Source: Candidatus Peribacteria bacterium (GTDB taxonomy: Bacteria; Patescibacteriota; Gracilibacteria; UBA1369; LOWO2-01-FULL-3). Taken from it: 64,000 nt of DNA. The position numbers and the translations under genes are program-made. The notes beneath the pieces were generated by a model. That model searched no databases and had not been told where the DNA came from. It was given only the letters and a program-made list of their open reading frames with translations. Below are positions 25,940 through 31,540 of this stretch, in pieces (position 1 is the stretch's first letter; each line of letters begins with the position of its first letter). Location: NCBI GenBank assembly GCA_943357285.1, contig CALRGJ010000001.1, positions 62,001-126,000 of the forward strand, written 5' to 3'.

Positions 25940-28261
25940 TTATAGAAGAGTATGAAGTTTTATAACGCTTGTTGGAGCGATAAGATTTAAATTCTCGAGG
26001 AATACGTCCGCGTATTTTTTGTTTGTTAAACGAATGTCAAAGATAATTACTTTTTTGAGATTGGCGTGGCTGCTCTTTAATCGATTGATAATTTTCTTAG
26101 TGGCTTTAACGGCTAGAGGAACTTGTAATTCCATGAAGGCGTTGGCGTAATTACGGCTTAGAGCAATAATTTTGGGATCACTTGGTGGATCAAAAGGAAT
26201 TTTATAAATAATTAGCGTATCAATGTCTTGATTTGGTTCGAAATTTTCCCAAATATGGGAAGTGACAAGAAGAACTGGTGGGGTAAGAGATTTTTTTTCC
26301 TTTATGTATCGTTCTTGTATTTTGCCTAAGGATCCAGCTAATTGAGGAAGGACGGGTACATTTTCTTTGCTTAACTGTAGTGTGGTAAGTTCCAAGTCTT
26401 TCTTTGCGCTGAAAAGCATCGCAATGTTTTGAGATTTTTCTTTGTAGTACTTTTCTATGAATCGCGGAATTTTATTTGGATCACTGCCGTCAGTGTCTTT
26501 GGTAATGTAAATTTCGATTTTTTCGTCTTTTGGATTGAGATCGTAAATTGGTAATTTCGAATCTAAGTTTCCGAGAGATTTTATGAAATTTCCATCGTCG
26601 TTAATGGTCACGCATTCGTCGATAATTTGGTAATTTTTTGCTTTGCTGAAGATGTTGTTTAGGTCTTCTTTGAGGGAAAAAGGAGCTTTGCGTATTACTA
26701 TATTTGATTGAGGATCTTTTTCTAGCCAAACCATATTGTTTGCTAAGTCTGGCTTGGAAAGAATGCCGTGTAAATTCTTCAAAAATGTTTTCCATTGTTT
26801 GAGTGAACCGGCAGTTTCTTCGTTTTTTACATTTACTAATTCTTGGGAAATTTCGATGACGTTATTTAAGCTATTTACGGCATCTATCCATTCTTTGGTT
26901 TGGAAAATATCAGTATTGATTGTGCTTTTTGCTCCATAAATACTCTGATCATTGTGTCTTTCGAAAATAATTCCAAGTAGACCAAATAGGATGGTGGTCT
27001 TGGTGATTAGAGTAGTGATAGTCAGATCACTAGGAAAATATTCTTCCAATGTTTTGAGAATATCTATTGCCGGTTCAAGCTTTAGATAAGTAGAAGCGTG
27101 AAAGTGAAGTGAGTTTAAAAAATTATCAAAGTCGATGAGAATTAATCTTTTGTTTTCCGGCGGATTTTCTATGAGTGCTTGATTGGTGTAGAGAGATGCT
27201 TTGTTTTTGCCTTTCTCAAGCGCTTTTTTGAAGAACGTCTCTTCTTCAGGGTTTGTGATGTTTTCGTCGATATTTACTTTGAGAATTGTGGTTCTTTCAT
27301 CGTGGAAAAGTGCGACTTCGCTTAAGAGTCCTGTCTGAGTTTGTTTGCTCCAGTTTAGGTATTTTAAAAGTGCGCTGATTTCGTAATTTTCAAAGAATGC
27401 TTTTTCGCTAAATCTCTTTAATCTTTGTAAAGAAACGTAGCTTTTGGCAACGTCTACTTTACTTACCTCGTCAGATATTTCGCTGTTTATTTTTCTGAAG
27501 GTTTGATAGGGAACAACTATGCAAGTGTCGCCATCTGCTTTCTCACAAAGTGTTTTAATTAAATTATCGTATGGTGGAATGAATTCGAAAAGTGCGGATT
27601 CTGTGCACTCAAGAATTTCGAGAGAATTCTCTGATGGTGTGAATTCTTTCGGCTCTTTTTTTGTAGATTTAGCCTCGGAATTTGGTTTGCTAGAGATGCT
27701 GGAAATTAGATCCTTCAGCGGCCAATTAGACTTTTGAGTTAGAGCTTTCATCTGTTCTAAAAGTTCCGGCTCAAGGTTTTCAAATTCTTTAATTAATTTC
27801 AAGAAGAGTTCCATAGCTGCGATGGAGTCGTCGAGGGCACGGTGTTTTTCGCAGTGTGTGAGATTTAATTTTTCGCTGAGAATTTCCAAACTGTATGAGG
27901 GCATGTTTGGTAAAAGAATTCCGCTGATTTCTTGAGTATCGTAGCTTGGATTTTTAATTTCAATTTTGTTCGCTTCTAGAAATGAGAGATCGAATTTTAT
28001 GTTGTGACCTATGATAGGGAGGTCGCCAATAAAGGCTTGTACTTCAGCTCTTTTATCTTCGAATGGGGGAGCGTCTTGAAGGTCTGAGTCTTTGATGTTC
28101 GTAATGTGTGTGATGATTTTTGGGAGAGTAACTCCAGGGTTTACAAAAAACTTCAGAGTTTCTTTTTCTCCTGTTAAATCAAATTTCACTGCACCAAACT
28201 CGATAATTTTATCGGTATTTGGATCAAAACCTGTGGTTTCTAAGTCGAGAGATACGAACAT
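25940..28261 (-). CDS. DnaQ-like 3'-5' exonuclease fused to a degenerate DinG-like region
   Basis: FVSLDLETTGFDPNTDKIIEFGAVKF; IIGHNIKFDLSFL; HRALDDSIAAMELF; C-terminus resembles DinG but lacks Walker A, DEAH and motif VI. Confidence 0.8.
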   Translation of the reverse strand: MFVSLDLETTGFDPNTDKIIEFGAVKFDLTGEKETLKFFVNPGVTLPKIITHITNIKDSDLQDAPPFEDKRAEVQAFIGDLPIIGHNIKFDLSFLEANKIEIKNPSYDTQEISGILLPNMPSYSLEILSEKLNLTHCEKHRALDDSIAAMELFLKLIKEFENLEPELLEQMKALTQKSNWPLKDLISSISSKPNSEAKSTKKEPKEFTPSENSLEILECTESALFEFIPPYDNLIKTLCEKADGDTCIVVPYQTFRKINSEISDEVSKVDVAKSYVSLQRLKRFSEKAFFENYEISALLKYLNWSKQTQTGLLSEVALFHDERTTILKVNIDENITNPEEETFFKKALEKGKNKASLYTNQALIENPPENKRLILIDFDNFLNSLHFHASTYLKLEPAIDILKTLEEYFPSDLTITTLITKTTILFGLLGIIFERHNDQSIYGAKSTINTDIFQTKEWIDAVNSLNNVIEISQELVNVKNEETAGSLKQWKTFLKNLHGILSKPDLANNMVWLEKDPQSNIVIRKAPFSLKEDLNNIFSKAKNYQIIDECVTINDDGNFIKSLGNLDSKLPIYDLNPKDEKIEIYITKDTDGSDPNKIPRFIEKYYKEKSQNIAMLFSAKKDLELTTLQLSKENVPVLPQLAGSLGKIQERYIKEKKSLTPPVLLVTSHIWENFEPNQDIDTLIIYKIPFDPPSDPKIIALSRNYANAFMELQVPLAVKATKKIINRLKSSHANLKKVIIFDIRLTNKKYADVFLENLNLIAPTSVIKLHTLL

Positions 28262-28366
28262 GCGAATATATTTATATTTAATAGTTAGCAATTTTGGCGA
28301 TTTATTACAAGTGTGAATATCTTTAGGTTAAATTGTTTCACAATATTATTAGACATGTGTCGAGAA

Positions 28367-28804
28367 CAGAATTTTGACAATAAATTTAGTCCTGCTATAG
28401 TGATGTGATTTCAACAAAAAGAAATCAAATGCCCTAGAAAAGCAAAGTCGCTCATTAACACTCAAGAAAGTTCAAAACAAAAACAAAAAAATCTTGTCTT
28501 AGCGACGAGAGATGGAGTGAATGAAAAATGTCGTTCGCTCTTCTGTCCCCGCTAAGGGATGGTTCTCTGCCTTAGGTAGACAGCCGAAGCAGCTCAGACA
28601 GTTCTGAGCACCGTTCTGCTTCTAGCAATTCGTCTTCATTGACATTTCGTCTAGAGGAGCCCAGACGGCCGGTGGTGCGGCTGAAAACAACACTAAACCT
28701 TGGCTGGATGTAAAAACAAAAATAAAAGCTCCCAGTAAAAACAAAAATTTCTTACTGATTAAAACTTTCCCATCGATTCGTCGGTGGGTTTTTGGTATGT
28801 GGGG
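28367..28804 (+). ncRNA. Structured ncRNA copy 1 with own promoter and terminator (transcript about 28408-28793)
   Basis: TTGACA(28374)-16 nt-TATAGT(28396); many stems; terminator CCCATCGA-TTCG-TCGGTGGG-TTTTT (28769-28793); homologous to copy 2. Confidence 0.82.
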
Positions 28805-28811
28805 GAAGTTT

Positions 28812-30944
28812 TTATTTAGGTAATCCGTCTATAGTTCTTATGAATGCTTCAACTGCTTCTACCGGAATGTGATCACCATTTCCTTTTTCTTGTAAATCTT
28901 TAAGTGCTTTTACAATTTTTACTCTTGTATCATGTAGCCAAGAATCTTTTCCAAATTGTAGGTTTGTTAATGCATTGCGAAGCTCTCTTAATTTTGACTT
29001 TGGTAGTCCGTGTTGAGTGGTTCCTGCGTTTAGGGTGAGTGCTTTTGTCGCTGCATTTATCAATTCTTCGCTATTTCTGAAGTCAGTTTTTTCAATTTTT
29101 TTAATTGAGTCTTCAACTGGAGCAGGTTTAAGTTTTGGCGCTTGAGTTGGCGCAGCTGCTGTAGGGGTTTTTGGTGTTGGAGCTTGAGTTAAGGTTGGGG
29201 TTTGAACTGCAGCAGGTGTTGAACTAGTTGCTGATTCGAGAAGTTCATTTGCTATGCCAAGTTCCTCGGTTAAGCTTGTGACTTGTTGGGCTGATTGAGC
29301 TAGATCTTGTTGAGCTTTAATTAGAGCTGCATCTTTTGCCGCTAATTCTGCTCTTAATTGAGCTAGTTCTGGTGAATCTTTTTGCTCAGGTTGAGCAGGG
29401 GATTTTCTTGATTCTAGATCTTGAATTCTTCTGTCTTTTTCACGTACTTGTCTTTGTAAATCTGTAACTGTTGATGTAGTGCTAGCTAATTCCGTGGAAG
29501 CTCTTTTTAATCTCGCTAATTCTTCTGGGTGGATGGTTGCTAATCCATTCTGTCTTTGAAGTTGTTGTCTTAATGATCGAAGTTGCTCTTCTCCTCTTCT
29601 TATTGTTTCTTCTAAATTTTGGATGGTTGCTTTGTCTCTTGCTGAATCAACATCTACTCCACCTCTACCAGCTTTTCTCATGGCTGCACCTCTTGCTTCT
29701 TCAGCTTCAGCTGCTTGTTTTTTAGCTGCATCTAATTGTTTTTTCAGATTTGATTCAAATGATTTTGCTACACGGGCTTCTTCACGTGCAGTTCTGGATT
29801 CTTCTCTTGAGGTAGTAAGTTCAATCGTTTTTGCTTCCAATTTTGCTTCTAGTCTTTTTATTTCTGCTTCCGCTTTTTCTTTTCCTCTTTTTAGATCTTC
29901 TAATCCGCTTCCTTGTGCTGTTTCTGCGGATATTCTTAAAGATTCCTGAATGTCTAATTCTAGTTGAGCTACTTGGGTTTCAAGAGTTTTTTTATTTTCT
30001 TCAAGACTTGTGACTTTAGATTCGGCTTGTCCGGCTTTTTGATCTGCTTTTAAGGCTATTTCTTCTGCTTCTGAAAGTTGTCGTGTTAGTTCTTTAACTT
30101 TGCTTTCTGCATTTGCCGCTCTGGTTTCGGCAGCAGCAGTTTTTTCTCTTTCTCCTGATAATTCTCCTAGAGCTGCGCTTAATTCAGCTTCCAGTCTTGT
30201 GGCTTTAGCATTCGAAGTTTTAGTTTGTATTGCTTCTTTTTTTGGTGGAAAAAGATTTTTTCTAGTTTCGGCGTTGTCGAATATATTTACATATCCGTGG
30301 ATATCTCCAATTATGGCTACTCCATTGCGGATTTGAATTTTTACTTTTGAAGATTTTAATTCTTCGTTGATGGATTCAATTGCTGATGATATATCCGCTT
30401 CTTCGACATCTAAATATGCCGATAGGTTTACTAAAGGAATTCCTAAATATTGATCGACAATTAGTTCTAGTAATTCTGCTTTTTTGGAATATTGTGGTGG
30501 GATTTTTTCTCTTACTGCTTGGTGGAGTGCGAGTGTTGATGGGTGAACTGGTTGTCCTGATATCTGAATTCTAGTGTTGCAAAGAACTCTACTGACTACT
30601 GCGGCACTATTTTTTGGTGTTTCAGAAATTATATTGAGTCTACGTGTTCTAAATAGTTCTGATTTATTCAGATTGGTAATTTGTGCAGATGGAGCTGTTT
30701 TAGGGTTAGCTTCAGCAATATCTTTTATTTCAGCTTTAGTTAATCTAGGGAGTTCTTTTTCTGAAAAGGCTTTTAGATATGGCCTTCCTCCTTCATGGCT
30801 ATCTTTTAAAGCAGCTATTATTTCTTCTTTTGTGGCAAATTCAATGGCGTCTATTCTTGATTGGACTTCTGTATCTATGTCTTCTTGAGTAAGCTCATCT
30901 CCTGAAAGTGGATCTATTACTAATATTTCCTCTTGTTCTGCCAT
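28812..30944 (-). CDS. Hypothetical 710-aa protein with a long coiled coil and Pro/Thr-rich linker
   Basis: Extended heptad-rich Ala/Glu/Lys/Arg region; no family recognised. Confidence 0.75.
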   Translation of the reverse strand: MAEQEEILVIDPLSGDELTQEDIDTEVQSRIDAIEFATKEEIIAALKDSHEGGRPYLKAFSEKELPRLTKAEIKDIAEANPKTAPSAQITNLNKSELFRTRRLNIISETPKNSAAVVSRVLCNTRIQISGQPVHPSTLALHQAVREKIPPQYSKKAELLELIVDQYLGIPLVNLSAYLDVEEADISSAIESINEELKSSKVKIQIRNGVAIIGDIHGYVNIFDNAETRKNLFPPKKEAIQTKTSNAKATRLEAELSAALGELSGEREKTAAAETRAANAESKVKELTRQLSEAEEIALKADQKAGQAESKVTSLEENKKTLETQVAQLELDIQESLRISAETAQGSGLEDLKRGKEKAEAEIKRLEAKLEAKTIELTTSREESRTAREEARVAKSFESNLKKQLDAAKKQAAEAEEARGAAMRKAGRGGVDVDSARDKATIQNLEETIRRGEEQLRSLRQQLQRQNGLATIHPEELARLKRASTELASTTSTVTDLQRQVREKDRRIQDLESRKSPAQPEQKDSPELAQLRAELAAKDAALIKAQQDLAQSAQQVTSLTEELGIANELLESATSSTPAAVQTPTLTQAPTPKTPTAAAPTQAPKLKPAPVEDSIKKIEKTDFRNSEELINAATKALTLNAGTTQHGLPKSKLRELRNALTNLQFGKDSWLHDTRVKIVKALKDLQEKGNGDHIPVEAVEAFIRTIDGLPK

Positions 30945-31110
30945 AAAATAAAAATTAATTTTAGGAGGTTGAAGATAGTTTTTGCTGGTCGAAATGTCAA
31001 AAGATAGGACTTGAAAGGTCTTGGAGAGTGTGGGGAAGTATTGGAAAGGATAAAATTTGCATATCTTTGGTAAATGTTGTTTTGCAATACTTTACCCTGT
31101 TCGTCCACTG

Positions 31111-31540
31111 CAGAATTTTGACAATAAACTCATTCCTGCTATAGTGATGTGATTTCAAAAGAAATCAAATGCCCTAGAAAAGCACCGCTCATTAACACTC
31201 AAGAACGTTCAAAACAAAAACAAAAAATCTCTCATAGCGATGAGAGCTGGAGTGAATGAAAAATATCGTTCGCTCTGCCTTCCTCGCTAAGGAATGGCGC
31301 TCCGCCCTAGGCGGACAGCCGAAGCTGCTCAGACAGTTCTGAGTACCGTCCTGCTTCTAGCAAGTCATCGTCATTGATACTTAGTCTATGAAGAGCCCAG
31401 GCGGCCGGTGGTGCGGCTGAAAACAACACTAAACCTTGGCCGGATTATAAAACAAAAATAAAAGCTCCCAGTAAAACAAAACGTCTTTGCTGTCTAAAAC
31501 TTTCCCACTGACTCGTTTAGTGGGTTTTTGGTATCTGGGG
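31111..31540 (+). ncRNA. Structured ncRNA copy 2 (transcript about 31152-31529)
   Basis: TTGACA(31118)-16 nt-TATAGT(31140); same stems as copy 1 with compensatory changes; terminator CCCACTGA-ctcgt-TTAGTGGG-TTTTT (31504-31529). Confidence 0.82.

Follow-up and report, generated by a model that had tools for sequence, protein, structure and literature searches.

A previously undescribed candidate family of large structured RNAs with twin copies in Peregrinibacteria

Twin RNA genes and the search for known families

The window (the whole stretch analysed, 64,000 nucleotides of contig CALRGJ010000001.1 from a Candidatus Peribacteria bacterium) carries two direct RNA copies on the + strand, in stretches 28367–28804 and 31111–31540, that are 86% identical. 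Each copy has TTGACA-16-TATAGT at its front and an intrinsic terminator, made of a GC hairpin and a T-run, at its end. The RNA genes proper, whose ends are predicted from promoter and terminator, are ~380 nt each (copy A, 28408–28794, ~387 nt; copy B, 31152–31530, ~379 nt). The copy A promoter spans 28374–28401 (−35 TTGACA at 28374–28379, 16-nt spacer, −10 TATAGT at 28396–28401) and its terminator, CCCATCGA/TCGGTGGG plus a T-run, lies at 28769–28793; for copy B the corresponding positions are 31118–31145 and 31504–31529 (CCCACTGA/TTAGTGGG plus a T-run). A 37-nt core, GGCCGGTGGTGCGGCTGAAAACAACACTAAACCTTGG, is the same in both. The original prediction of diverged twins with these promoters, terminators and an identical core was thus confirmed at the places it named. 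The 710-aa coiled-coil gene between the copies (28812–30944, − strand; no Pfam match) was judged from its distribution to lie outside the system, and the divergent neighbour of copy A (25940–28291, − strand) encodes a DEDDh exonuclease (RNase_T) joined to a DinG-type Helicase_C_2 domain, as assigned by Pfam.

Promoter-like sequences recur across relatives: of 95 homologous loci, 54 have TTGAC-N17-19-TANNNT ahead of the RNA on its own strand, versus 5 on the opposite strand and an expectation of 2.6 from shuffles. The folding energies of copies A and B are well below those of shuffled sequences (z = −4.7 and −4.9; 0 of 100 shuffles equally stable), and no consistent ORF runs through the RNA (longest + strand ORF of 12–78 aa).

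In searches with Rfam 15 neither the window copies nor relatives of either paralogue type matched a family; the scan of the window yielded tRNA only, and relaxed scans of the region and relatives gave nothing above a gathering score. The covariance models of RNase P RNA (RF00010) and tmRNA (RF00023) had no match in the window, and both RNAs are encoded elsewhere in the genome (G000:C19:13436-13873 at 132.8 bits and G000:C5:7260-7687 at 107.9 bits, respectively). 6S RNA (RF00013) was not matched in window or genome, a negative of limited sensitivity since the control found 6S RNA in only 5 of 14 genomes. With cut-offs of E = 10 for the window copies and E = 1 for eight loci of type 2 or from other families, the raiA/ModT model went unmatched, and the OLE, ROOL and GOLLD models matched neither the window copies nor their relatives. 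Identity with a known RNA family was rejected on these scans and on the separate RNase P and tmRNA genes, in keeping with the original view that the RNA is none of RNase P, tmRNA or 6S RNA. No description of this RNA was found in the open-access literature. Within the scope of Rfam 15 and that literature, the missing Rfam match, the strong covariation and the order-wide spread described below support the earlier suggestion of an undescribed large structured RNA family.

Predicted secondary and tertiary structure

In the predicted architecture a long-range helix (PC) shuts a core that contains hairpins P3 and P4 and a compact H-type pseudoknot whose third loop is rich in A. There are three to four hairpins, and the linkers are composed only, or nearly only, of A and C. 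In copy A, a P1 hairpin (TGATTTC/GAAATCA, 28406–28427), read from sequence and MFE and present in most full-length family f1 copies, is followed by the long hairpin P2 (28501–28553), which has 20 pairs, 11 of them changed on both sides, and 95% of cells paired; its copy B counterpart, placed by alignment and covariation, is at 31236–31288. The PC 5′ strand GCTAAGG (28551–28557), which shares 3 nt with the end of P2, is partnered with CCTTGGC (28698–28704) on the basis of covariation and RNAalifold, and the copy B strands are at 31286–31292 and 31434–31440. Alignments place a conserved GATGG at 28558–28562. Hairpins P3 (28561–28585) and P3b (28591–28610; 99% paired) each show both-side change in 6 of 7 pairs, with counterparts at 31296–31320 and 31326–31345, and P4 (28615–28665; stem 28615–28622 with 28654–28665, variable tip) corresponds to 31350–31401. 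Pseudoknot stem S1 (28667–28682) pairs GGCCG at 28667–28671 with CGGCT at 28678–28682, and stem S2 (28674–28694), with order-wide covariation, pairs GGTG at 28674–28677 with CACT at 28691–28694 and leaves an A-rich loop between; in copy B, where pseudoknot and PC 3′ strand occupy 31403–31440, S1 lies at 31403–31407/31414–31418 and S2 at 31410–31413/31427–31430. A 3′ hairpin (CAGTAA/TTACTG, 28733–28757), seen in sequence and MFE, has counterparts in relatives.

This fold was examined with an alignment of 16 full-length family f1 sequences, on which RNAalifold, run unguided, recovered P2, PC, P3, P3b, P4 and S1. With S2 added, 96.1% of cells were paired, versus 37–46% with slid partners. Changes on both sides affect 31 of 55 pairs and 137 cells, the latter compared with 45 in shuffles; 0 of 500 shuffles reached the observed values. 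In 25 divergent sequences P4, S1 and S2 covary again (12 of 19 pairs; 0 of 500 shuffles), and S2 varies across the order as GGUG/CACC, GGCG/CGCC, GGCA/UGCC and GGAA/UUCC, with GGUU/AACC in one genome (G010). PC joins the 7–10 nt before GAUGG to the stretch after S2; across 86 distinct sequences 86% of its cells are paired, compared with 35–51% in shifted registers, and 8.6 of 10 pairs are formed where the best of 2000 shuffles reaches 6.9. Because part of the P2 3′ strand is shared with PC and with an extended P2 base, the RNA may also adopt alternative conformers.

Beyond the window's subtype, most members have a putative second long-range pseudoknot, of the kissing type, between a P3 loop UGACYA and a URGUCA 3′ of PC. 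By six-base complementarity alone the signal is modest (own mean 5.15 versus 4.92 for cross pairs), and support therefore comes from compensatory cases (UAACUA/UAGUUA, UUACCA/UGGUAA and AGACGA/UCGUCU) together with the fixed position. Both predicted pseudoknots are thus supported by covariation.

The helices of the original prediction fared unevenly against this alignment. Most are real or possible, including CTGCC/GGTAG, the terminator and CAGTAA/TTACTG; the long-range AAATGTC/GACATTT helix is unsupported because a sister copy (G002A, 98% identical) carries AAATATC opposite GACATTT. Two local hairpins, UCCC/GGGA and CUUGUC/GACGAG, either adjoin P2 and PC or are in competition with these helices, which are far better supported in the wider alignment, and the pseudoknot and long-range closing helix were missing from that structure altogether.

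Some conserved strands appear to have more than one structural setting. A near-invariant CGCCCUAGAA motif, seen at 28430–28439 as (Y)GCCCUAGAA, at 31170–31179 and in relatives (L091-L096, L117-L122), changes its structural position, lying 5′ of P2 in family f1 but within the P2 hairpin in f2 and f8, much as a mobile recognition module would. The f2 form of the motif is also complementary to the PC strand; by eye, the CCCUAGAA loop could pair with that strand in f2, but such a pairing shows no covariation in f8. The strand CGCUAAGG (28495–28560 and 31230–31295) can pair with the extended P2 base, with PC or with a CCCUAG motif, from which alternative conformers or a switch are possible.

Distribution and syntenic loci

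A DNA search detected relatives in 28 of 99 related genomes. We then relied on two covariance models with rough E-values, R1 for the 3′ domain and R2 built from divergent sequences only, without any window-type sequence. R1 matched 43 of 90 sampled genomes of the order (Peregrinibacteria), and its weak matches have the same anatomy when read; R2 matched 63 of 90 (~70%) and recovered both window copies (E = 2.9e-5 and 3.6e-5). A covariance search of the kind proposed with the original prediction yielded homologues across much of the order. Beyond it, R2 found only four genomes in the class, at weaker values (E of 7e-6 to 0.008, rough), and in an even sample of the phylum 11 of 11 matches fell within the same order, with none elsewhere. 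No R1 or R2 match came from families f10 and f14 or from most of f4, several high-completeness genomes included, which indicates that the RNA is either not universal in the order or diverged past the models. The RNA is ~320–450 nt long across the family, and many genomes of the order have two paralogous RNA genes, at two syntenic loci.

A search for the core pattern over 85,462 GTDB species returned 18 stretches, 16 of them labelled Peregrinibacteria, Peribacteria, Gracilibacteria, Patescibacteria or unnamed bacterium and two Nitrospirota. The two metagenome-assembled genomes labelled Nitrospirae/Nitrospirota (L142, JAACEU010000039.1; L136, JAUVQE010000015.1) appear to correspond to G014 and G028, two genomes placed in the same family as the window, and their labels are probably wrong. 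The core pattern had no match in viral contigs, and a phage origin was rejected.

Among ~98 RNA gene contexts, the RNA occupies two recurrent positions. At locus 1 it stands head-to-head with the DEDDh-exonuclease/DinG-type gene, and its terminator is commonly faced by carA or another gene; at locus 2 it adjoins serine dehydratase, F420-ligase-like or purN-like genes, with an MscS-like gene opposite (locus 2 names being a reading of the sequences, not Pfam assignments). Since families f1, f2 and f8 each have both loci, the simplest reading is that the RNA was duplicated in ancient times, before those families split. In a tree of the core the paralogues separate within families; at ~150 nt the core does not have the length needed for dating the duplication, and the case for its age rests on synteny. 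The window's genus has two tandem locus 1 copies. R2 detected no locus 2 (type 2) copy there, its matches at E ~0.1 looking like chance in protein-coding sequence.

The genes that lie constantly beside the RNA (DnaQ/DinG-like, carA) are ordinary ones, and apart from ordinary synteny the ~98 contexts revealed no conserved partner gene. A dedicated partnership with the DnaQ/DinG protein is weakened by the second paralogue and by several members without that gene. At most loci the neighbours are convergent or divergent, which argues that the RNA is not a leader; a placement typical of a cis-regulatory leader or riboswitch was not seen, as the RNA ends in a terminator and the gene downstream mostly runs the other way.

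Proposed role and alternatives

Structured bacterial RNAs longer than ~300 nt are few, and most have proved to be central machines or unexpectedly built. Here the host is a candidate-phyla lineage with genomes of ~1 Mb, many of which keep two such genes. Taken together, the RNA's own sigma70-type promoter and terminator, the neighbours mostly facing away from or towards it, the lack of a consistent ORF and the conserved tertiary structure indicate action in trans, and the presence of the RNA in ~70% of the order's sampled genomes, often twice, suggests an important job. On balance we favour, with some confidence, a new family of tertiary-structured noncoding RNAs, transcribed independently and acting in trans, that would serve as a stable, protein-binding scaffold of housekeeping type in the manner of raiA/ModT. 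Such an RNA would be stable and abundant and act in trans; one or more proteins would bind to its rigid, pseudoknotted core, a step proposed by analogy, with contacts possibly made through the conserved unpaired GAUGG, CCCUAGAA and the A-rich loop, as the comparison with raiA/ModT suggests.

The model for this comparison, ModT (the raiA motif RNA), is the nearest analogue to have been studied by experiment, an abundant, trans-acting, housekeeping-like RNA with two pseudoknots in C. difficile (PMC11706538). Both are conserved, independently transcribed, structured bacterial RNAs with two pseudoknots; the differences are that the ModT knockout site is 215 nt, that the raiA family occurs in Bacillota and Actinomycetota and at other loci, and that the new RNA, known from sequence, has no Rfam match. 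OLE, ROOL and GOLLD, which form RNA-only multimers, are likewise large, highly structured and of largely obscure function, with architectures of kissing-loop and A-minor type and variable linkers (PMC12286853), whereas the RNA described here exists as two chromosomal paralogues at syntenic loci, lacks an Rfam match and has a core pattern absent from viral contigs. Since no homology to raiA/ModT, OLE, ROOL or GOLLD was found, the analogy concerns mode of action only. RNase P RNA and tmRNA are similar in length, pseudoknots and housekeeping-like conservation, but both are encoded elsewhere in the genome and the new RNA matches neither model. 6S RNA, which some bacteria have in two copies, is also a stand-alone chromosomal regulatory RNA, but the new RNA is about twice as long, is pseudoknotted, lacks the long bubble hairpin, and has no 6S match in its genome.

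Several other readings share part of this evidence. A more far-reaching and unlikely one is that of a lineage-specific core RNA of Peregrinibacteria, kept nearly as deeply in the order as RNase P, whose paralogues would form a heteromeric or catalytic RNA machine new to bacteria. The presence of two genes in many genomes would also suit an oligomer made of RNA alone, homo- or heteromeric, as known from OLE, ROOL and GOLLD and assembled for example through the palindromic CUAG in CCCUAGAA and mixing the paralogues; ornate RNAs do make dimers and cages by kissing loops and A-minor contacts (PMC12286853), and CUAG is nearly invariant despite its shifting secondary-structure position between families, yet the related motif of type 2 RNAs lacks CUAG, and we regard such assemblies as unlikely too. 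That the compact pseudoknotted core with invariant unpaired residues, enclosed by PC, is the active centre of a ribozyme or ligand-binding RNA would agree with the absence of a dedicated protein neighbour, but known ribozyme and riboswitch models went unmatched even at relaxed thresholds and there is no sign of a processed substrate or a controlled downstream gene, which makes this distinctly doubtful.

Regulation in cis, of the divergent exonuclease/DinG-like gene or the convergent carA, appears quite improbable: the locus 1 RNA does stand head-to-head with the former in f1, f8 and some f2 genomes, but the second paralogue lies beside other genes, several members have neither neighbour, the RNA is encoded on the other strand and ends in a terminator of its own, and its fine structure is kept beyond what a promoter region would need. 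The repeated AAAACAAAAAC linkers in the copies examined, on which weak CrcZ matches fall (E = 3–5, not significant), could hint at a decoy or regulator that titrates an A-rich-binding protein such as Hfq in CrcZ fashion; since Hfq was not found in the window's genome and the folded core, not the linkers, is most conserved, we hold this to be very improbable. The original prediction had tentatively linked the RNA to the 710-aa coiled-coil protein, whose gene sits between the copies in the window's genus. That link did not hold up: the protein cluster has 5 members in the ~98 RNA contexts, in the window's genus and one other genome only, and the gene is an insertion in a few genomes and not a partner of the RNA, a partnership to which we give next to no credence. 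No Pfam domain was found in the protein, and no relatives in viral contigs.

The fold is defined enough, with its closing helix and one or two pseudoknots, for direct probing, mutation and structure solving, and a ready covariance model makes the role of conserved noncoding RNAs in CPR bacteria a testable question.

Separately from the RNA, the locus 1 neighbour at 25940–28291 (− strand), the DEDDh exonuclease fused to a DinG-type helicase, differs between families. Walker A and DEAH motifs are kept in all four f2 and f8 relatives checked (AGTGTGKS/T) and are absent from all three f1 proteins checked, the window's included. The exonuclease domain is retained in the f1 proteins checked, which thus apparently represent, judging from their motifs, a motor-dead DinG kept as an exonuclease.
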